Below, piece after piece: positions 9,523-44,793 of a stretch of 49,282 bases of DNA. Position 1 is the first letter of the stretch. Every line of letters starts with the position of its first letter. This stretch comes from a candidate division Zixibacteria bacterium HGW-Zixibacteria-1. Lineage in GTDB: Bacteria; Zixibacteria; MSB-5A5; GN15; PGXB01. The notes below the pieces were generated by a model. It had not been told where the DNA came from and ran no database searches. It saw nothing but the letters and a program-made list of their open reading frames with translations. The translations under genes were made by a program, and so were the position numbers. Where the stretch lies: assembly GCA_002838945.1 (NCBI GenBank), contig PGXB01000026.1, positions 1 to 49,282 on the forward strand. The letters are read 5' to 3'.

Positions 9523-10140
9523 ATGTTCAAGACTGACGCGGAATTATGGCAGGAAATTATTGCCAATAGCGGCAAATCCTGGGAAGAGCTGATAAAGCGC
9601 TACCAGGCTTTAGTCTATGCTGTTTCTACCCGGGCCGGGTTGACCATGATGGATGCCGCCGACTGTTTCCAGCAAACCTGGCTGGCACTTTACAAAAACC
9701 GCAAAAAATTAAAGGACCCGTCGCGGCTTTCGGCCTGGCTGGTGACTACGGCCAAGCGGGAAGCTTTGTTGCTTCGCCGCCGGGCGGACCGAGACTCGGG
9801 AATTACGGATACTTCATCCTGCCGGTACGGGAATAACCCGGTCAATAAAGAGGCGGAGTTGGTCAGCCCGGCTCTTCTTCCCGACGAGGAACTGGAGCAA
9901 CTGGAAAACCAGGCCCGGCTCGAAATCGCTCTGGATGAGCTTGACCGGCGCTGTCAGCAGGTTATGGAGGCCTTTTTCTTTGCCCCCGAAAATAAGTCAT
10001 ATGAAGAAATTGCAATATCTTTTGGAATATCTTCAAATTCCCTGGGTCCTCTTCGCCGCCGCTGTCTGGAAAGACTTAAGCAGATTCTTTTGAAAAATCA
10101 GGGGGCGGGAGAACGAAATAACGCTAAATCGACTCTGTAA
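9523..10140 (+). CDS. ECF-type RNA polymerase sigma factor
   Basis: This is a 205-residue sigma-70 family protein of the extracytoplasmic-function type. Region 2 covers about 20-90 (FQQTWLALYKNRKKL..RLSAWLVTTAKREALLLRRR). Region 4 covers about 130-190 (ALDELDRRCQQVMEAFFF, then SYEEIAISFGIS and a recognition helix with RRRCLERLKQI). Regions 1 and 3 are absent, as usual for ECF factors. It directs RNA polymerase to a specific promoter set. It is the first gene of a four-gene operon with an anti-sigma-like protein, a TPR-CHAT protease and a secreted subtilase. Only 3 bases separate it from the next gene. Confidence 0.9.
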   Translation: MFKTDAELWQEIIANSGKSWEELIKRYQALVYAVSTRAGLTMMDAADCFQQTWLALYKNRKKLKDPSRLSAWLVTTAKREALLLRRRADRDSGITDTSSCRYGNNPVNKEAELVSPALLPDEELEQLENQARLEIALDELDRRCQQVMEAFFFAPENKSYEEIAISFGISSNSLGPLRRRCLERLKQILLKNQGAGERNNAKSTL

Positions 10141-10143
10141 TGT

Positions 10144-10731
10144 ATGAAGATAAGGAGGAATATTACGAGCAGACATCTGAGTCGAAAAGAATTGATTGAG
10201 CTTGCGCAGAAGCAGCCGGAGAAACTGCCCGGGCATTTGACCGAATGTGTCGAGTGCCGGGAAATGGCCGAGTTGTTCAGGATTTATGCTGTCGCCAATC
10301 GTCCCGCATTGCCCGATGCGCCCAAAGCCTGGGTGGATAAGGCCGTTGCGATTATGAAAGGCGCCGGGGTCCGGAGCAAACTCAAACGCCTGTCGGCGCT
10401 TATCGCTTTTGACTCATGGGCAATACCTCAACCGGTTGGAGTGCGCAGCGAAGTCGCCTCCGAGCATCGCCGACTCCGCTTCACCGCCGATGATATTGTT
10501 TTTGATCTTCGCGCGGAGCGCCTTCAAAAGAGCTGGGTGCTGGTGGCACAGGTCAAGAGCAAATCAGATGTCGCAGTTGTCGTCGAGGCCGACAAGAAAA
10601 TGATATCGCCTGACAAGAGCGGCCTTTATCAATGGTCAGGAACCAAACCCCCCAGGAAAATTTCTCTCAAATCCGATGCGTTCGATATCCGACTGCCGGA
10701 GTTAGTATGGAAAAACCGCCGCTTGAAATAG
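10144..10731 (+). CDS. Soluble zinc-finger anti-sigma-like protein
   Basis: This 195-residue protein has an N-terminal H31-x3-C35-x2-C38 motif (HLTECVECRE) of the ZAS/zf-HC2 type found in anti-sigma factors. It lies directly after the sigma gene. It has no transmembrane helix, so it is cytoplasmic, unlike most ECF anti-sigma factors. Residues about 85-195 form a beta-rich domain of unknown family (RLRFTADDIVFDLRAE, SWVLVAQVKS). The ATG at 10144 has no Shine-Dalgarno site before it. Instead AAGGAGG lies inside the gene at 10152-10158, followed by in-frame ATT at 10162. Either coupling from the sigma gene starts translation, or a rare ATT start is used. The direct link to the TPR-CHAT gene, which overlaps its end by 25 bases, makes it a candidate protease substrate. 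Confidence 0.72.
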   Translation: MKIRRNITSRHLSRKELIELAQKQPEKLPGHLTECVECREMAELFRIYAVANRPALPDAPKAWVDKAVAIMKGAGVRSKLKRLSALIAFDSWAIPQPVGVRSEVASEHRRLRFTADDIVFDLRAERLQKSWVLVAQVKSKSDVAVVVEADKKMISPDKSGLYQWSGTKPPRKISLKSDAFDIRLPELVWKNRRLK

Positions 10732-13454
10732 CCGCACGCCGCTTTCTGAGTACCGGCCATATCAAGGATTTCACTGAAGATATACTCGCCAAGGAATGCG
10801 ATGCCCTGATCCAGAAAGAGGCGCGACATTCCCTGAAATCAGCCAGGGCAATGGCAGGCTCTTTTATTAAAAAAGCCGAAGCCTGTGGCCTTACTATGCA
10901 ATTGACCGCATATCGGACCCTGGCCCGCATGTCGCATATGAGCGGCGCTCATTCCGAAGCTCTTGGGGCATATTTAAAAGCAAGAAAACTGGCCACACCC
11001 GAACCGTTGGTTCGCGGCCGGATTGATCGGGCGCTGGTCGATGTCTATATGTATCTCGGCGATTTTGCCAAAGCCCGACAGGCGGCGAATCGCGCCATAA
11101 AATCATTTAATATTCTCGGCTCGGAAACCGATTTGGCCCAGACACAGGTGAATTATGCCAACCTGCTTCATCGTCAGGACCGGCACCGCGAAGCGGAAAA
11201 GCTATATCGGACCGCCGCCGAGTTTTTTGAAAAAACCGACAATCGTATCGCCGTGGCCCGGTGTTACTACAATCGGGCGAATACACTCGTACAGCTTTTT
11301 GATTTTCATCCGGCCGAGGCGCTTTATCAGCAGGCCATGAAAATTTATGACAACGAAGGGTACGCGCTCGATTCATGCGACGCCCGCTATGGAATTGCAT
11401 GGCTGCAAATGCTGAGCGGGAATTATCACATGGCCCTTTTGGAACTCGCCGCCTGTGAAAAGACATATCATGAGGGTGGAGATCCCCGAGGGGAGTCTCT
11501 CTGCTCGCTTGACCGGGCCGAAATCTATCTTAGTCTGGGCCTATATACGGATGCTCTTCAGGCTGCCAGAGACGTTGAGAAAAAATTCGCCAAACTCAAA
11601 CTTCGGTACGAACGAGTCAAAGCTTCCTTATTCAGAGGTCAGGCTGCTTCCGCACTGGGTTTAAAACGCGAGGCCAGGACCGCCATGGCTCGTGCCAGGA
11701 CCGGTTTCACAGCGGAGAAAAATAAAGGATTTACCGGTGTGGTTCATCTGCTGGCCGCCGATCTGGCCGGGCGGAATCAGAAATCCCGATTGACCGAGAT
11801 CAAATCGGCACGTAAGCATTTTGCCCAGGCGCAACTGCCGCTCTGGGAAGCGGTTTGCGATCTGCATGAAGCGGTCGATTCGAAAAAGGCAAAAAAGGCC
11901 CTGGAGCGGCTGGCACAAAACGGCGCGGCCCGCAATGTTCCGCACCTGTATGCACTCTGGCAAACGGCCTATGGCGACTTCGAAAATGCCGAGGGTCGTC
12001 CTGATGCCGCTCGCCGGCGATGGCGCCAAGCGGCCGAGCGGATCGACTCCGTGCGGGCGCAGCTTCCGCCGTTGGAACTGAGAAGCGCCTATGGGCGCAT
12101 CTACAGCTCACCGCACCTGCGGCTGATAAATTCCGAACTGGAACACGATGTTTCCATGGCCGCAATCTGGTCGGAAAGATATAAGACGGCCGGTGTCTGG
12201 TCGCCGTTGAGACCGATGAACGCCGATGAACCGGCACGGCGCCATGTCGAAGAATCACTGGATGCACTGGCCCATCAGGTTGTCGCCCTGGCTCATCATA
12301 TTTCTCCCTCAACCGGCGAAAGATCTCTCTCACCAGCGACGATAAATAAGGCAATGACGCAACTTCAAAAAAGAGTTCGCAATGAATTGATTGCCGCCGA
12401 GACAGCCGGCGATCAATCGGTAACACCGGTGGAAAAGTTATTGAGCAATATTGAAACCGTTTCCCGTCGAATGCCGGTAGTTCAGTTCCATATTCAAAAT
12501 GATGAAATTATCGCCTTTGTGCACCGATCCGGCGAAACGAAATTGCACCGCTATCACAATGGTTATGTTCGACTGGCCGGTGCCATGCAGCGCTGGCGCT
12601 TTATTCTGGAAGGCGAATTGCTTGCCTCCTATCTGGGCGAAAAGACCGATGAAAATATTGAAACCGCTTTCTGGACCGAATTGGGTGAATGGCTCTGGAC
12701 CCCATTGAAAATCGAACACGACTGCCCCAGGGTGCTGATACTTCCCGAAGGAGAATTGGCGAATCTTCCGTGGCAGGCTCTTATCGTTGACGGCAGACGG
12801 CTTGCCGAGCGCCATCATTTTATCCTTGCACCAAGTCTGCGGCATTTCCTGCATGCCGGAAGCATCCGAATCGGATCGGATAAAATCGAACTATTCAGGG
12901 GATCGGACAAGAATCTGCCTTACAGCAGCCATGAGTTGAAAATTTTCTCCAGACATGCCGGTGACCGGGCCGTCATTCATAACCCGATCCATCGGGCAGG
13001 ATGGCCGTCCCACGGCGAGGCACAATTGTGGCATTTCACCGGACATGCCGAACTGCGCACCGATAACCCGTTTTATTCGTATCTGGTTCTTGAGGATGGC
13101 CCGCTCTTTGCCGCCGATTTTCGCTTGAAGCAGTTCCATGTGGGTCTGGTGACCCTGGCCGCCTGCCGGTCCGGGGAACAGGTGGCCATGCCCGGCGAGG
13201 AATCGACCGGTTTGGTGCGATCCCTGCTGGAAATGGGCGCTCGTAATGTAATTGCCAGCTACTGGCCGGTCTCCGACCGGACCACGGCTTATTGGATGAA
13301 AGCATTTTACGATAAATTTTTCAATGGAATAAACATTCAGGATGCGGCCCGCTATGCTTCGAACATGGTCAGGGAGCAATACCCTTCCGCCTATCATTGG
13401 GCGGCCTTTTTCATATCCGGCGCGGGTGACATGGGAGGATCAAATGCAAATTAA
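10707..13454 (+). CDS. TPR-CHAT caspase-like protease
   Basis: This is a 915-residue cytoplasmic protein. Residues about 60-480 are helical tetratricopeptide repeats (for example HSEALGAYLKARKLA, HREAEKLYRTAAEFF and ALYQQAMKIYDNEG). The C-terminal ~300 residues form a CHAT domain (caspase HetF-associated with TPRs). The expected catalytic pair is present: H780 in LWHFTGHAEL and C820 in LAACRSGE, followed by GARNVIASYWPVSD and a closing AAFFISG. The protein is therefore probably an active cysteine protease controlled through its TPR part. The start at 10707 follows GGAG (10698-10701) and overlaps the anti-sigma-like gene; an upstream in-frame ATG at 10632 lies deep inside that gene and is less likely. 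TPR-CHAT proteases are known in type III-E CRISPR systems (Csx29) and other immune modules. Confidence 0.9.
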   Translation: MEKPPLEIAARRFLSTGHIKDFTEDILAKECDALIQKEARHSLKSARAMAGSFIKKAEACGLTMQLTAYRTLARMSHMSGAHSEALGAYLKARKLATPEPLVRGRIDRALVDVYMYLGDFAKARQAANRAIKSFNILGSETDLAQTQVNYANLLHRQDRHREAEKLYRTAAEFFEKTDNRIAVARCYYNRANTLVQLFDFHPAEALYQQAMKIYDNEGYALDSCDARYGIAWLQMLSGNYHMALLELAACEKTYHEGGDPRGESLCSLDRAEIYLSLGLYTDALQAARDVEKKFAKLKLRYERVKASLFRGQAASALGLKREARTAMARARTGFTAEKNKGFTGVVHLLAADLAGRNQKSRLTEIKSARKHFAQAQLPLWEAVCDLHEAVDSKKAKKALERLAQNGAARNVPHLYALWQTAYGDFENAEGRPDAARRRWRQAAERIDSVRAQLPPLELRSAYGRIYSSPHLRLINSELEHDVSMAAIWSERYKTAGVWSPLRPMNADEPARRHVEESLDALAHQVVALAHHISPSTGERSLSPATINKAMTQLQKRVRNELIAAETAGDQSVTPVEKLLSNIETVSRRMPVVQFHIQNDEIIAFVHRSGETKLHRYHNGYVRLAGAMQRWRFILEGELLASYLGEKTDENIETAFWTELGEWLWTPLKIEHDCPRVLILPEGELANLPWQALIVDGRRLAERHHFILAPSLRHFLHAGSIRIGSDKIELFRGSDKNLPYSSHELKIFSRHAGDRAVIHNPIHRAGWPSHGEAQLWHFTGHAELRTDNPFYSYLVLEDGPLFAADFRLKQFHVGLVTLAACRSGEQVAMPGEESTGLVRSLLEMGARNVIASYWPVSDRTTAYWMKAFYDKFFNGINIQDAARYASNMVREQYPSAYHWAAFFISGAGDMGGSNAN

Positions 13455-14856
13455 AATAATTCATAAGACATCGTTGATAATTTTCCTGGGGTGGCTGCTC
13501 CTGCTGTTGCCGCACTCATTCGGCTCCGGCTTGAATAATGGCTCCAACCCTGAGGAACTGGTTTGCCGGATGGAGCCCGGATATGATATTGAAATTATCA
13601 ATACTCTATATGGCACGACTGTCAGGAGCTACCAGCCGCAAATCAAGTGTTACCTGTTGATCGTTCCCGAGGGTCAGGATCCCGAAAGCCTCGCAACCAT
13701 GATCAATACCCGGTTCGAGGTCCAGTATTGCGGGGCCAATTATTATCTGGCCGCTCCCGAACCGTTCCAGCGAAGCCAGCCCTTCCTGGACAACCAGGGT
13801 ATCGGCGATCTGGAAACCCAGTTGGCCGCAACCACTCTCGATCTGGCCACGGCCCAGATTATCACCGAGGGGATTGATGTCAATGTGGCCATTTTGGATG
13901 GCGGCATAGATTTCGATCATCCCGAATTTGTCGAAAAATCGGGCGGCGTTTTTTCCGGCTGGGACTTTATCGATAATGACTCTATCGCCAATGATGAGCC
14001 GGGCGGTTCATGTTCCGGACACGGGACATTTGTGGCCGGTGTCGTCAAGCTGGTGGCGCCGGCATCCCATATTTATGCCTACCGCGTTCTGGACACCACC
14101 GGTGAGGGCGATGGTTACAATATTGCCGCCGCCGTCCTGAAAGCGATCGCCGACAGTTGCAAGGTTATAAACATCAGTTTCGGCATGATTGGCGAAAATG
14201 TCGCTCTCGATGACGCCCTGAGGTACGCCAGAGACAATGATGTCATGGTGATTGCGGCGGCCGGCAATGATTCCACCGACAGCAACCTGATCTTTCCATT
14301 TCCGGCTTCGAGATATTATTGTATCGCGGTGGCCGCCCTCGACTCGCTTAACTACCGGGCCGACTTTTCGAATTTCGGTGTTAAAGTCAATGTGTGCGCC
14401 CCCGGAACGGCGATTTACGCACCCTATCTGGACACTCTCTATGGCTGGTGGAGCGGAACCAGTTTCGCCGCGCCTTTTGTTACCGGATTGGCGGCATTAA
14501 TCTATTCATTGAACCCCGATATCGAATGGGATGATGTCTATAATATCATAAATCAGACCGCCACTAATGTCGATTCGCTTAATCCCGGTATTGAGGGCAT
14601 GCTCGGAAACGGCCTGATTAATATGACCGCTGCCCTGCAAATGGTCGGTGAGCCATATATGTCAGGCGATGCCAACCATGATGAAATTGTCAACCTGCTG
14701 GATATCATGTTTGTGATTTCATACCTGTACCGAGGAGGACCTGCGCCGATTCCCCTTATTTCCGCCGACGCCGATGGAAGCGGGAGTGTCACGATTCTGG
14801 ATCTGGCCTATTTGATCAAGTATCTTTACAAAAACGGGCCGCCTCCGGTCGGTTAA
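13444..14856 (+). CDS. Secreted subtilisin-like serine protease (S8) with C-terminal dockerin
   Basis: This 470-residue protein begins with a signal peptide (about 1-28). A short propeptide-like region leads to the S8 domain. The triad is D152 (AILDGGID), H193 (SGHGTFVAG) and S340 (SGTSFAAP), with N275 in AAAGND as oxyanion residue. Residues 406-470 are a type I dockerin of two calcium-loop repeats (GDANHDEIVNLLDIMF and ADADGSGSVTILDLAY). Dockerins bind cohesins; no cohesin is visible in this window. The start at 13444 follows GGAGG (13434-13438). The gene overlaps the end of the CHAT gene by 11 bases, so it is translated with it and is presumably part of the same response. A strong terminator follows. 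Confidence 0.92.
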   Translation: MQIKIIHKTSLIIFLGWLLLLLPHSFGSGLNNGSNPEELVCRMEPGYDIEIINTLYGTTVRSYQPQIKCYLLIVPEGQDPESLATMINTRFEVQYCGANYYLAAPEPFQRSQPFLDNQGIGDLETQLAATTLDLATAQIITEGIDVNVAILDGGIDFDHPEFVEKSGGVFSGWDFIDNDSIANDEPGGSCSGHGTFVAGVVKLVAPASHIYAYRVLDTTGEGDGYNIAAAVLKAIADSCKVINISFGMIGENVALDDALRYARDNDVMVIAAAGNDSTDSNLIFPFPASRYYCIAVAALDSLNYRADFSNFGVKVNVCAPGTAIYAPYLDTLYGWWSGTSFAAPFVTGLAALIYSLNPDIEWDDVYNIINQTATNVDSLNPGIEGMLGNGLINMTAALQMVGEPYMSGDANHDEIVNLLDIMFVISYLYRGGPAPIPLISADADGSGSVTILDLAYLIKYLYKNGPPPVG

Positions 14857-14880: not shown

Positions 14881-14908
14881 GGGACGGCCCTCCGGCCGTC
14901 CCTTTTTT
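14881..14908 (+). terminator. Rho-independent terminator of the sigma/CHAT operon
   Basis: A perfect 9-base-pair stem (GGGACGGCC 14881-14889 with GGCCGTCCC 14894-14902) has loop CTCC and is followed by six T. It begins 24 bases after the subtilase stop codon and closes the four-gene operon. Confidence 0.93.
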
Positions 14909-15698: not shown

Positions 15699-17897
15699 AT
15701 GAAAGATTTCTTTATTAGCTATAATAGCGCGGACCGCCAATGGGCCGAGTGGATCGCGTGGGAGCTCGAAGAGGCCAAATATACGACTGTCTTGCAGGCG
15801 TGGGATTTTCGCCCCGGAAGTAATTTCGTTCTCGAAATGCATAAGGCGGCAACCGAGGCAGAGAGGACAATTGCCCTGCTGTCTCCAACCTATTTGAAAT
15901 CGATATTTACACAACCGGAATGGGCGGCAGCTTTTGTCGATGATCCCACTGGATCGAAAAGGAAACTAATTCCCATTAGAGTCCGGGAATGCGATTTAAC
16001 CGGCCTGCTCAAGGCCATTGTTTATATCGATTTTGTCGGAAAATCTCAGGAAGCCGCCAAAGAAGCTCTCCTGACCGGTATCAAGAAGGAACGCGCCAAA
16101 CCGGATATAAAACCGGGGTTTCCGGGCGCTTCGGAGCGGACTGTTAAGGAACAACCCAATTTCCCCGGTCAATTGCCGCCGGTCTGGAATATCCCCCACC
16201 AGCGAAACCGGAATTTTACCGGACGGGAATCTCTGCTGGATAATCTTCACAAAGCCTTGACCTCGGGGCAGACAACCGCCCTGACACAAGCCATCAAAGG
16301 CCTCGGCGGCGTCGGCAAAACTCAGCTTGCCCTTGAGTATGCTTATCGTTATGCCGCCGAATATAAAGCGGTCTGGTGGCTGCGCTCCGAAGACAGTGCC
16401 ACGCTGTCCGGCGATCTGGCTTCAATGGCCGCGGCCCTATGTCTGCCGGAAGCCGAGGCTCAGGATCAAAAAGCCACAGTTCAGGCTGTCCGGAATTGGC
16501 TTGGCAAAAATAAAGACTGGTTGTTGGTGTACGACAATGCTCCCGATCCGGAGACTATCCGGGTATATTTGCCACCCGGCAGCACCGGTCATGTGATAAT
16601 CACTTCCCGACATCATGCCTGGCGCGGTGTCGCGGAACCACTGGAAGTGCAAGTCCTGGAGCGCTCGGAAGCTGTCGATTTCCTGATTAAACGGTCCGGT
16701 CTGGATGACAAGCCCGGAGCCGACAAACTGGCCAATGAATTAGGCGATCTCCCCTTGGCTCTGGAACAGGCGGCTGCTTATATCGAAGAAACCGATATAA
16801 ACTATGCTGACTATCTGGAGTTATTCAAAACACGAAGGAAAGAACTCTGGGGGGGAGCCAAACCGCCCATTGATTATCCGGAGACAGTTGCCACCACCTG
16901 GAATCTGGCCATGGAGCAGGCTCGCACTGAAGCCCCCGGCGCTCATGATCTGCTCATGCTATGCGCCTATCTGGCGCCTGACAATATCCCCAAGGAACTT
17001 CTCATTAGTGGCAAGAAATATTATCCGGAATCTTTGGCCAATACAGTAGCCGACCCCCTTAGGTTGGATCGGGCAATAGTTGCACTCAGGCATTATTCAA
17101 TGATTCAGTTGGATGGTGACTCAATATCAGTACACCGTCTGGTTCAAGCGGTCGCCCGCGACCTGGCCGAAAGTGAATCCGGAAATAAATGGGCAGAATC
17201 AGCCGCAAAATTAATAAATTTAGAATTTCCTTTTAAAGAGCATGATCTAAGCACATGGTCGCAAAGTAAGCTATTGATGCCGCATGTATTGACGGTGACA
17301 GAACATGCTGAACGGCTTGAAATATTGCCAAATGAAACAACATGGCTGTTAAATGAGGCTGGTCTATATCTAAAGGGACGTGCCGATTTCGCAGAAGCTC
17401 GAAACTTGCTTGAACGGGCCTTGAAAATCTTTGAAAAAGTTTATGGTCACAACCATCCCAAGGTGGCCACACTTGTCAACAACCTTGGCGATGTCCTGCA
17501 AGACATGGGCGATTTCAAAGGCGCAAAGTCGCATTATGAACGCGCCTTGGAAATCGATGAAAAAGCGTTCGGCTCTGATCATCCCGAGGTGGCCATAGAT
17601 GTCAACAACCTGGGTTTTGTCTTGAAAGCCATGGGCGATCTTAAAGCGGCACAGGCTCATTATGAGCGGGCCTTGAAAATCGATGAAAGGGCTTATGGTC
17701 ATGATCATCCCAATGTAGCCACTGATGTTAACAACCTGGGTGATGTCCTGCGAGACCTCGGCGACCTGAAAGGGGCACAGCCTCATTTCCGGCGCGCTTT
17801 AGACATCTTTCGGAAATTTCTGGGTGATGAACACCCCAGCACTAAAATCGTCCGGGAGAATCTGGAAATAGTTGAGAAGCAGTTGAAATCGAAGTGA
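15699..17897 (+). CDS. TIR / NB-ARC / TPR protein with NLR-like architecture
   Basis: This is a 732-residue cytoplasmic protein. Residues 1-130 are a TIR domain (FFISYNSADRQWAEWIAWEL, then LLSPTYLKSIFTQPEW); E74 is in the position of the catalytic glutamate of NAD-cleaving TIRs. Residues about 165-480 are an NB-ARC-type STAND ATPase with P-loop GLGGVGKT (201-208), LLVYDN (275-280) and a GDLPLALEQAAAYI segment. Residues about 547-720 hold kinesin-light-chain-type TPRs of 42 residues (for example HYERALEIDEKAFG), with matching 126-base repetition in the DNA. Such proteins oligomerise on ligand binding and are known as plant, animal and bacterial immune receptors. Here the TIR would be the effector, the TPRs the sensor. 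It is monocistronic. Antiphage function is an inference. Confidence 0.88.
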   Translation: MKDFFISYNSADRQWAEWIAWELEEAKYTTVLQAWDFRPGSNFVLEMHKAATEAERTIALLSPTYLKSIFTQPEWAAAFVDDPTGSKRKLIPIRVRECDLTGLLKAIVYIDFVGKSQEAAKEALLTGIKKERAKPDIKPGFPGASERTVKEQPNFPGQLPPVWNIPHQRNRNFTGRESLLDNLHKALTSGQTTALTQAIKGLGGVGKTQLALEYAYRYAAEYKAVWWLRSEDSATLSGDLASMAAALCLPEAEAQDQKATVQAVRNWLGKNKDWLLVYDNAPDPETIRVYLPPGSTGHVIITSRHHAWRGVAEPLEVQVLERSEAVDFLIKRSGLDDKPGADKLANELGDLPLALEQAAAYIEETDINYADYLELFKTRRKELWGGAKPPIDYPETVATTWNLAMEQARTEAPGAHDLLMLCAYLAPDNIPKELLISGKKYYPESLANTVADPLRLDRAIVALRHYSMIQLDGDSISVHRLVQAVARDLAESESGNKWAESAAKLINLEFPFKEHDLSTWSQSKLLMPHVLTVTEHAERLEILPNETTWLLNEAGLYLKGRADFAEARNLLERALKIFEKVYGHNHPKVATLVNNLGDVLQDMGDFKGAKSHYERALEIDEKAFGSDHPEVAIDVNNLGFVLKAMGDLKAAQAHYERALKIDERAYGHDHPNVATDVNNLGDVLRDLGDLKGAQPHFRRALDIFRKFLGDEHPSTKIVRENLEIVEKQLKSK

Positions 17898-42339: not shown

Positions 42340-44793
42340 GTGAAACGAAATATTTTTATCGTATTGATCATTACTCTATCCGCGTTCTTTATATTTTTTG
42401 GAATATCCAACCCGGATCAAAGCGCGGGATTCATCACAAGTGAGTCAAATATGTGTGGTGATGTCAACGGCAATGGCTCAATAAATATTCTCGATGTCAT
42501 TTATATAATAAATTATATCTATAAAGGCGGCCCTCCCCCGACCGATACCCTGGCCGCCGATGTCAATAATTCCGGCAATATCAATATCCTCGATATTACC
42601 TATTTAATTTCATTTCTGTACAAAGAAGGTCCGGATCCGGTCTGCCCCGGCGGCCAGCCCGGTGAACTGCCGTCCAGCTTTGATCTGCGCAATTATGACG
42701 GCATTAACTATGTGACTTCGGTAAAAAATCAGAGCGGCGGCACCTGCTGGGCCCATGGAACCATGGCTTCGATCGAAAGCAACCTGCTCATGACCGGTGC
42801 CTGGGCCGATAATGGCGAATCGGGCCAGCCCAATTTGGCCGAATATCACCTCGACTGGTGGAACGGATTCAATGATTTCTATAATGCCGATGCCGATCCG
42901 CCGACCGGCCAGGGCATCGAGGTTCACCAGGGCGGCTATTATCTTATGGCCAATGCCTATATTTCCCGCGGCGACGGCGCCGTGCGGGATATTGACGCCC
43001 AGTCTTTCTCGGTCCCGCCCGATCTGGCCAAAGACAGTTATCATTATTACTATGTGAGAGATGTTGAATTCTATATTGCCGAATCCGACCTGAGTCGAAT
43101 TGATACCATCAAACGGAAAATAATGGAATATGGTGCCATTGCCACCGCTTATAGTTCCTATGGCGAATATATGGTTAATTATATTCATTATCAACCGCCG
43201 GATGATCCGGTCGAACTTAACCATGCCGTCGCTATCGTCGGCTGGAATGATAACCTGGCTACCCAGGCGCCGCACCCGGGAGCCTGGCTGTGTAAAAACA
43301 GTTGGGGATCCGGCTGGGGATTTAGCGGTTATTTCTGGATTTCTTACTATGATAAGTACTGCTGCCAGGAATATCAGCTCGGAGCGGTTTCGTTTCAGAA
43401 TGTGGAACCGATGAAATATGACATCGTGCACTGCCATGACTATCACGGATGGAGAAACAACCTCGGATACACCTCTTATGAAGCTTTTAATGCCTTTACC
43501 GCAGCGCATAATGAGCGGCTCGAAGCGGTCAGTATCTGCACTCCGGAGGATCAGGTCAATTATACGGTTCGAATCTATGACACTTTTTCCGGCGGAGCGT
43601 TGTCCGGACTGTTGAGTGAAGTCTCGGGAAATTATGAGTATCGCGGTTTCCACACCGTTGATCTGACCACACCGGTTACACTCAGCGTCGGCAATGATTT
43701 CTACATTTACATGTACATTTCCTATCCCTCTCTGCCTTATGATTGTTCCACCGATGTCCCGACTCTCCTTGGAAGCAGCCAGAAAGTCTGGGTGCCGTCG
43801 GCGTCACAACCCGGACAGAGCTACTACAAGCTGGGAGGCACCTGGCATGATCTCTATGATTACGACAATTCGGCCAATTTCTGCATAAAGGGGCTTGGTC
43901 TCAATGTTGGGATGAATGTCAAACCGGCCGATAATCTTGAATCCGAAGGCCCCTCGGGCGGCCCCTTCGAACCGGGAGACAAGTCTTATCAGTTTTCGCA
44001 TCGATATGATGACCCCATTGATTACGAAATAACCATTGATCCTTCAATTGATTGGCTCACTCTTTCCGGCGATGTCGGCGGCAGTCTGCCCCCCAATACG
44101 CCCGCCGAAGTCCTGGTAAGTATCAACGGTAATGCGGAAGATCTGGTCGAAGGCATTCACCACGGGAGAGTCTATTTCACCAACCTGAGTGACCCCAGCG
44201 ACAACACCAGCCGCGAAGTCACTCTCACTGTCGGGACGCCTTCGGTGCGCTATGAATGGCTTCTCGACACCGATCCCGGCTGGACCTGCGAAGGTCAATG
44301 GGCCTTTGGCGTTCCGACCGGCGGCGGCGGGACTTTTGGCTGGGGGGTCGATCCAACCAGCGGCCACACCGGCGATAATGTCTATGGCTATAATCTCGAC
44401 GGCAACTATCCCCCGAATCTGCCGCCGACCCACCTGTATATGCCGGCTCTCGATTGCACTAAATTATTCCGGATCAGTCTTGATTTCTGGCGATGGCTGT
44501 GTGTCGATGGGTGGGGAATCGGTTATATCTCGATCAGCACCGACGGTTCTTACTGGTATCCGGTATATTCGCAGACCGGCTCACTGCTGGACAATAGCTG
44601 GAATGAAATGTCTATCGATATTTCGCAATATGCCGATTTCCAGTCAACTGTCTATTTGCGATTCACGATGGAGGCCAATAACGCCACTAACACTTTCGGC
44701 GGGTGGAATATTGATGATATCCAGATAAAGGCCATCTATGACTCAGCCTCAACCAAGGCCCTGCAGCAACCAGTGAGCGTGAATAATAAATAG
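42340..44793 (+). CDS. Secreted papain-like (C1) cysteine protease with N-terminal dockerin
   Basis: This 817-residue protein has a signal peptide (about 1-30) and a two-repeat dockerin at about 39-98 (GDVNGNGSINILDVIY and ADVNNSGNINILDITY). The C1 protease domain spans about 112-355. It shows Q131 and C136 in QSGGTCWAHG, H295 in LNHAVAIVGW and N320 in CKNSWGSGWG, so the active site is complete. A lectin-like or beta-rich region (about 365-530) and a C-terminal jelly-roll-like domain (about 640-800) follow. The start codon is GTG at 42340, preceded by GGGAGG. A dockerin at the N-terminus of a protease is uncommon. It probably acts outside the cell or on its surface. Confidence 0.9.
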   Translation: MKRNIFIVLIITLSAFFIFFGISNPDQSAGFITSESNMCGDVNGNGSINILDVIYIINYIYKGGPPPTDTLAADVNNSGNINILDITYLISFLYKEGPDPVCPGGQPGELPSSFDLRNYDGINYVTSVKNQSGGTCWAHGTMASIESNLLMTGAWADNGESGQPNLAEYHLDWWNGFNDFYNADADPPTGQGIEVHQGGYYLMANAYISRGDGAVRDIDAQSFSVPPDLAKDSYHYYYVRDVEFYIAESDLSRIDTIKRKIMEYGAIATAYSSYGEYMVNYIHYQPPDDPVELNHAVAIVGWNDNLATQAPHPGAWLCKNSWGSGWGFSGYFWISYYDKYCCQEYQLGAVSFQNVEPMKYDIVHCHDYHGWRNNLGYTSYEAFNAFTAAHNERLEAVSICTPEDQVNYTVRIYDTFSGGALSGLLSEVSGNYEYRGFHTVDLTTPVTLSVGNDFYIYMYISYPSLPYDCSTDVPTLLGSSQKVWVPSASQPGQSYYKLGGTWHDLYDYDNSANFCIKGLGLNVGMNVKPADNLESEGPSGGPFEPGDKSYQFSHRYDDPIDYEITIDPSIDWLTLSGDVGGSLPPNTPAEVLVSINGNAEDLVEGIHHGRVYFTNLSDPSDNTSREVTLTVGTPSVRYEWLLDTDPGWTCEGQWAFGVPTGGGGTFGWGVDPTSGHTGDNVYGYNLDGNYPPNLPPTHLYMPALDCTKLFRISLDFWRWLCVDGWGIGYISISTDGSYWYPVYSQTGSLLDNSWNEMSIDISQYADFQSTVYLRFTMEANNATNTFGGWNIDDIQIKAIYDSASTKALQQPVSVNNK

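Follow-up and report, generated by a model that had tools for sequence, protein, structure and literature searches.

An ECF sigma factor, a soluble anti-sigma-like protein, a TPR-CHAT protease and an exported subtilase form a conserved module in Zixibacteriota and Acidobacteriota: a possible peptide-triggered sigma switch

What cue might join a sigma factor, its presumed inhibitor, a CHAT protease and a secreted protease within one operon is the question raised by contig PGXB01000026.1 of a 3.8-Mb draft genome from the Zixibacteriota, of which a stretch of 49,282 nucleotides was analysed (the window). On its forward strand the genes SIG, ZAS, TPR-CHAT and SUB adjoin or overlap, with a gap of 3 bases between SIG and ZAS and overlaps of 25 bases between ZAS and CHAT and of 11 bases between CHAT and SUB, and a single strong terminator lies 3' of the four, its core at 14881-14902 consisting of a GC stem of 9 pairs with TTTTTT after it. 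Both the coupling, with coordinates that proved right, and the terminator had been described in an earlier note made from the letters alone, which proposed that the operon is a protease-triggered sigma switch; this is a plausible outline, partly anticipated in the literature, in which cleavage, signal and regulon are the conjectural elements. The operon, its conservation, its domain make-up, the invariant dyad of the CHAT domain, a conserved patch in the TPR array and a fusion with an oligopeptide importer operon in Acidobacteriota are established here by computation. The features are as follows.

9523-10140, + strand: SIG, ECF-type sigma factor of 205 aa (TIGR02937, Sigma70_r2, fold match)
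10144-10731, + strand: ZAS, soluble anti-sigma-like protein of 195 aa (AlphaFold2 model, family alignments)
10174-10362, + strand: residues 11-73 of ZAS, class I anti-sigma-like domain (helices of the model; zf-HC2 in homologue L112)
10234-10257, + strand: Hx3Cx2C zinc-ligand motif of ZAS, H31, C35 and C38 (motif conservation in homologues)
10384-10701, + strand: ZAS beta-sandwich, about residues 81-186, with a DS...GVR...R motif (D90, S91, R101, R109)
10707-13454, + strand: TPR-CHAT protein of 915 aa (PF12770 9e-35, TPR_12 2.5e-15)
10884-11726, + strand: TPR array, about residues 60-340 of TPR-CHAT (conserved patch)
12675-13421, + strand: CHAT peptidase domain (PF12770, 124 bits, cut-off 24)
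13044-13046, + strand: catalytic His H780 of CHAT (column invariant where present)
13164-13166, + strand: catalytic Cys C820 of CHAT (column invariant where present)
13444-14856, + strand: SUB, exported subtilase of 470 aa, triad D152/H193/S340 (Peptidase_S8 3e-39)
13444-13524, + strand: signal peptide of SUB, a hydrophobic N-terminus (sequence; homologues alike)
14665-14826, + strand: dockerin type I domain of SUB (PF00404, Dockerin_1)
14881-14908, + strand: intrinsic terminator, 9-pair GC-rich stem, loop of 4, run of T

The first gene product is a sigma factor of the ECF type, with a sigma2 region (about residues 19-95) and a sigma4 region (about 120-191) and neither sigma1 nor sigma3. It scores 86.4 bits against TIGR02937 over residues 19-189 (cut-off 42.9), stands above the cut-off for Sigma70_r2 (4e-11) and just under that for Sigma70_r4, and matches region 2 of E. 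coli sigmaE in fold with a Z of 12.9. Its neighbours are constant. Of 132 genomes of Zixibacteriota searched with ZAS, 38 hold relatives of it; sigma lies directly upstream of ZAS on the same strand in all 40 loci read, CHAT lies downstream of it in 37 of the 37 with enough contig, and SUB follows CHAT in 29 of the 30 whose contig runs past the CHAT end, the sole exception (L066) having a shortened CHAT. The four-gene order thus recurs in every long-enough ZAS locus except one degraded copy, which is far beyond chance. The source genome holds four copies of the module, namely that of the window, a tandem pair on contig C1 and one on contig C11. Two of these copies (L159 on C1, 5141-7916; L077 on C11, 7578-10333) have a CHAT gene broken up over two reading frames, which may reflect sequencing error, decay or frameshifting.

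Beyond this phylum, a CHAT-based scan of named genomes met module parts or CHAT relatives in Acidobacteriota, in a TA06 genome and in a Chloroflexota genome, where only CHAT and SUB were seen, and the same four parts stand in other orders in Acidobacteriota, one TA06 genome and one actinobacterial locus. Most Acidobacteriota have SIG-CHAT-ZAS-SUB and others SIG-ZAS-CHAT-SUB, and in an independent acidobacterial search ZAS adjoined SIG, CHAT or both in nearly every stretch that allowed judgement. An unannotated locus of Nonomuraea reads SUB-SIG-(sandwich protein)-CHAT and matches the module profiles at 9e-40 for sigma, 2.5e-54 for CHAT and 1.6e-4 for the sandwich; by comparison, ECF-like frames near unrelated CHAT genes in the source genome score 1.8e-9 and 2.7e-7. 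The actinobacterial ZAS homologue is without the zinc part, and the subtilase there has no evident signal peptide. The gene order, for which the earlier note had suggested a search in related genomes, is therefore conserved across phyla and not unique to the source contig.

ZAS itself has no match in Pfam or NCBIfam. Its AlphaFold2 model (pLDDT 85) places helices at residues 14-23, 30-34, 36-47 and 61-73, forming a four-helix N-terminal domain, and a C-terminal beta-sandwich from residue 81. The N-terminal part agrees with the class I anti-sigma domain layout (PMC7406223), and the Hx3Cx2C motif is located where that layout expects it; with its four helices the domain looks like one of class I, where the layout occurs with or without the motif. 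Ligands of the form Hx3-4Cx2C are present in 63 of 86 homologues, zf-HC2 is above its cut-off in one of them (L112), the ZAS profile matches RsiW weakly (E 0.25), and a membrane-like helix is absent from all homologues examined. The ligand positions and the missing membrane anchor are thus as the earlier note had them, and its reading of ZAS as a soluble zinc-finger anti-sigma factor gains support from the four-helix domain with Hx3Cx2C, from zf-HC2 and from the absent membrane helix, while binding to sigma is a predicted property. The anti-sigma-like domain carried on a carboxypeptidase-regulatory-like protein, usually with zinc ligands, is new here for Zixibacteriota and Acidobacteriota.

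Sensing of oxidation is frequent among soluble zinc anti-sigma proteins (PMC8999054), and on that precedent SIG and ZAS might answer another cue, such as zinc or oxidation, the operon would then hold no more than co-regulated proteolysis genes, and CHAT would have separate substrates. However, the zinc ligands are lost in 23 of the 86 homologues with CHAT linkage kept, and the 25-base overlap of ZAS with CHAT is common among ZAS loci, so that we consider an arrangement of this kind quite unlikely. The best-conserved part of ZAS is the beta-sandwich (R101 in 86 of 86, D90 in 85 and S91 in 83), which resembles carboxypeptidase-regulatory-like domains weakly by sequence, with CarboxypepD_reg matches in homologues. 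A named fold for it was dropped, as the fold search returned generic Ig-like matches only (Z no higher than 7.1). Between helix 4 and the sandwich runs a linker of 14 residues in 63 of the 86 homologues; the earlier note had suggested looking for a conserved cleavable linker, and the length is nearly fixed whereas the sequence is unconserved. Cut sites in Craspase are likewise unconserved (PMC11106740).

Contact between sigma and ZAS was approached through a fused SIG-ZAS model, built by reading through the in-frame stop, and through covariation. In the fused model the domains are good and their mutual placement is unsure (pTM 0.55). Compared with solved structures over the sigma part only, the placement of sigma2 and sigma4 lies at an rmsd of 10-12 to several anti-sigma complexes and of 22-29 to RNA polymerase complexes, which is a loose agreement. 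Covariation of sigma with ZAS (86 pairs, Neff 70) is dominated by phylogeny, the top pairs mirroring deep clades; ZAS helix 1 is enriched, though not with sigma4 in particular. It could also be that TPR-CHAT or the subtilase degrades sigma itself and that proteolysis is an off-switch, as proposed for ECF54 sigma factors: on the strength of the same neighbouring genes, a review suggests that these are controlled by proteolysis and have no anti-sigma factor (PMC8999054). We regard this as unlikely, since in the window and in most homologues the gene of a protein with an anti-sigma-like domain adjoins those of sigma and CHAT or separates them, and an exported subtilase would not meet a cytoplasmic sigma factor.

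In the CHAT domain, H776, H780 and C820 are identical in the 86 homologues wherever the columns are present, in agreement with the intact H780/C820 dyad of the earlier note, at the positions it gave, and the residues do not vary freely. Invariance across phyla indicates that selection keeps the dyad, and argues for probable catalysis over mere binding. The same evidence bears on a reading in which ligand-bound TPR-CHAT would pull ZAS off sigma by binding and without cutting: TPR scaffolds do bind proteins, and soluble anti-sigma systems with partner switching are on record (PMC8999054), but a pure binder would not need a His/Cys dyad, invariant here in homologues of three phyla, and partner switching of this sort seems to us a poor prospect. 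The TPR array in turn carries a patch of N149, N152, H155, R156, D158, N189, D269 and E302 that is about 99% conserved in the 86 homologues, and in an alignment with the Pins TPR both N149/N152 (at the NLGN asparagines) and N189/N192 fall on paired asparagines. Pins and its relatives grip peptides through such asparagines. Further profile matches of the TPR part are to LGN, kinesin light chain, AfsR and RapJ. The array thus looks like a groove of the ligand-binding type and is the probable peptide-sensing part. The earlier note had made the TPR part the sensor of a signal, which is still a supposition as to the signal, but had missed the patch.

The last gene encodes a protein that matches Peptidase_S8 at 3e-39, with the triad columns D152/H193/S340 invariant in homologues and a hydrophobic N-terminal stretch near-universal among them; SUB is, on this evidence, a predicted exported protease with an intact D/H/S triad. 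Its dockerin was considered as a sign of a cellulosome and this was rejected: dockerin type I matches occur at 109 places in the source genome, mostly in long open frames (14665-14826 and 42457-42618 in the window, for example), and this suggests a tag for surface sorting in general. Some Zixibacteriota loci (L061, L067 and their relatives) have an operon subtilase of 1000-1700 aa, and the two such proteins tested carry a type IX-like C-terminal sorting domain (Por_Secre_tail) instead of the full dockerin.

A hint at the possible ligand came from a search for promoters. A shared motif upstream of the operon, which the earlier note had proposed to look for, was not borne out by a bipartite search upstream of sigma: nothing convincing beyond shuffles appeared in Zixibacteriota (best 6 of 41 loci), and the strong acidobacterial motif (17 of 46) consisted of codons of the upstream OppA gene. 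This supposed promoter, in fact the 3' part of the coding sequence for an oligopeptide-binding protein, led to the finding that in a large acidobacterial clade a complete Opp operon (two ATPases, two permeases and SBP_bac_5) runs immediately 5' of sigma in the same direction, and in many such loci sigma starts before oppA has ended (8234 and 8237 in L131). Members of the Opp transporter adjoin the module in most Terriglobia-type loci; on the CHAT tree the linkage falls mainly in one clade of 31 rows and in one separate case, with some losses and 4 state changes. No Opp neighbour was seen in the Zixibacteriota loci. Taken with the exported protease, the Opp fusion points to extracellular peptides as the cue, and as evidence for such a cue it is strong for the acidobacterial clade and only suggestive for Zixibacteriota.

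These data allow a model to be proposed, in which we infer four steps, namely sigma binding by ZAS, ZAS cleavage, a peptide ligand and a regulon. At rest, the N-terminal domain of ZAS would hold the ECF sigma factor, with the beta-sandwich serving as the part recognised by TPR-CHAT. The TPR groove may bind a ligand, most likely an imported peptide from extracellular proteolysis, upon which the CHAT site would be activated and would inactivate ZAS, most likely through a cut inside one of the two ZAS domains or in the stretch that joins them. The freed sigma factor could then drive its own operon and transcribe a regulon including the secreted subtilase, which would provide positive feedback on protein use. 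Precedents are the cleavage by Csx29 of Csx30, the inhibitor of CASP-sigma (PMC10028731), and that by the CHAT protein HetF of the negative regulator PatU3 (PMC12288457). The whole explanation, a cytoplasmic sigma/anti-sigma pair wired to a caspase-like TPR-CHAT protease, triggered by peptides and with the exported subtilase as one output, we regard as evenly poised between right and wrong.

A literature search on CHAT with ECF sigma and subtilase found only PMC10028731 and PMC8999054. According to the latter, ECF54 sigma genes are accompanied by genes for a carboxypeptidase, a subtilase and a CHAT protein, from which the review deduces proteolytic control without an anti-sigma factor, and by this gene context the module is clearly of the ECF54 kind: sigma, CHAT, subtilase and a carboxypeptidase-type protein are common to both, and the Nonomuraea locus, of that make-up, has a homologue of the ZAS beta-sandwich beside its closely matching sigma. 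In contrast, ECF54 is described without an anti-sigma factor, whereas Zixibacteriota and Acidobacteriota carry the anti-sigma-like domain and an exported subtilase. The earlier note had taken no account of this neighbourhood of sigma, CHAT, subtilase and carboxypeptidase, already described for ECF54, and had missed the Opp link as well. The anti-sigma-like domain fused to the sandwich, the TPR patch, the Opp operon, and the occurrence in Zixibacteriota and Acidobacteriota, where the subtilase is exported, were not found described, although the founding papers on ECF54 may mention some of these. The ECF54 group is said to belong to the Actinobacteria and reportedly goes back to Huang 2015 and Casas-Pastor 2021. 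A possible mechanism is here offered for a sigma group of this context, whose control is listed as unproven, and with the hidden anti-sigma-like domain and the Opp link testable hypotheses can be framed for what had been an unexplained neighbourhood.

Craspase (Cas7-11, Csx29, Csx30, CASP-sigma) likewise encodes a TPR-CHAT protease with an ECF sigma factor and a likely inhibitor of it, and the CHAT domain is common to both (profile match to Csx29 structures 4e-6). However, the module has no Cas7-11 or Csx30-like sequence, its TPR part is unmatched, and it has an exported subtilase as partner and another presumed trigger. The source genome contains no Cas7-11 effector, that is, no protein with several RAMP domains; its sole RAMP match is a 225-aa frame near cas1 on another contig (the two genes within 20009-22418 of C62), unrelated to the operon. 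Against the Csx29 family NF041237 (cut-off 300 bits), the TPR-CHAT of the window has no match at E up to 1, and of two homologues scanned one scored 45.9 bits and one had no match; among the Csx30 chains of the PDB the ZAS profile has no match at E up to 1, and the fold search was too weak to argue against a kinship of the two. The earlier claim that the same kinds of parts stand together without a Cas gene thus stands as to Cas7-11, but the kinship to Craspase appears limited to the CHAT fold: the module is an analogue and not a member, although by analogy it may work like Craspase. That it is a peptide-sensing counterpart, possibly a cousin of the stock that supplied the CRISPR module with its protease and sigma output, is a tentative idea that we hold to be rather doubtful.

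HetF/PatU3 of Anabaena (PMC12288457) shares with the model a CHAT protease that cleaves away a negative regulator, but is without a sigma/anti-sigma pair and has its role in cell division and heterocyst differentiation. With ChrR/RsiW-type class I zinc anti-sigma factors ZAS shares the four-helix domain, the Hx3Cx2C motif and a gene position next to an ECF sigma factor, but it is soluble and has a carboxypeptidase-regulatory-like sandwich in place of the cupin or membrane anchor. In the Rap/RRNPP family, TPR sensors respond to peptides imported by the Opp transporter; the idea is alike, whereas the output of the module is a CHAT protease and sigma, and the TPR likeness is general (Pins, KLC, RapJ), the ligand being putative. 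Membrane stress (RseA, RsiW) and one CRISPR subtype provide the known cases of sigma factors released by a protease. If the proposed switch is true, such an output, here chromosomal and multi-phylum, would be a general bacterial device and not a CRISPR curiosity.

A role in defence or cell suicide, in which infection would activate CHAT, ZAS and other targets would be cut and the sigma response would protect the population, is what Craspase, with related parts, performs (PMC10028731; PMC11106740), and a TIR-NB-ARC-TPR gene (15699-17897) follows the operon closely. However, PADLOC has no match for SIG, ZAS or CHAT and generic subtilase matches only for SUB, the source genome has four copies of the module, which occurs widely in two phyla, and its constant partner is an exported protease, joined in Acidobacteriota often by a peptide importer, which nutrition fits better; we consider defence very improbable. 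The TIR-NB-ARC-TPR gene itself begins about 840 bases 3' of the operon, matches TIR_2 at 5e-34 and NCBIfam FxSxx_TPR at 445 bits (cut-off 300), and is perhaps an independent gene of the NLR-like or defence type.

Some CHAT relatives lie outside the module. No module was recognised beside a CHAT match in Streptomyces chartreusis, and plasmid relatives (Caballeronia, Nostoc and others) were rejected as members, their contexts being other and the module absent. On the Caballeronia plasmids (L078, L079) TPR-CHAT has type VI secretion genes on one side and a two-partner (ShlB/FHA-type) secretion pair on the other, which is a different, unexplained context.
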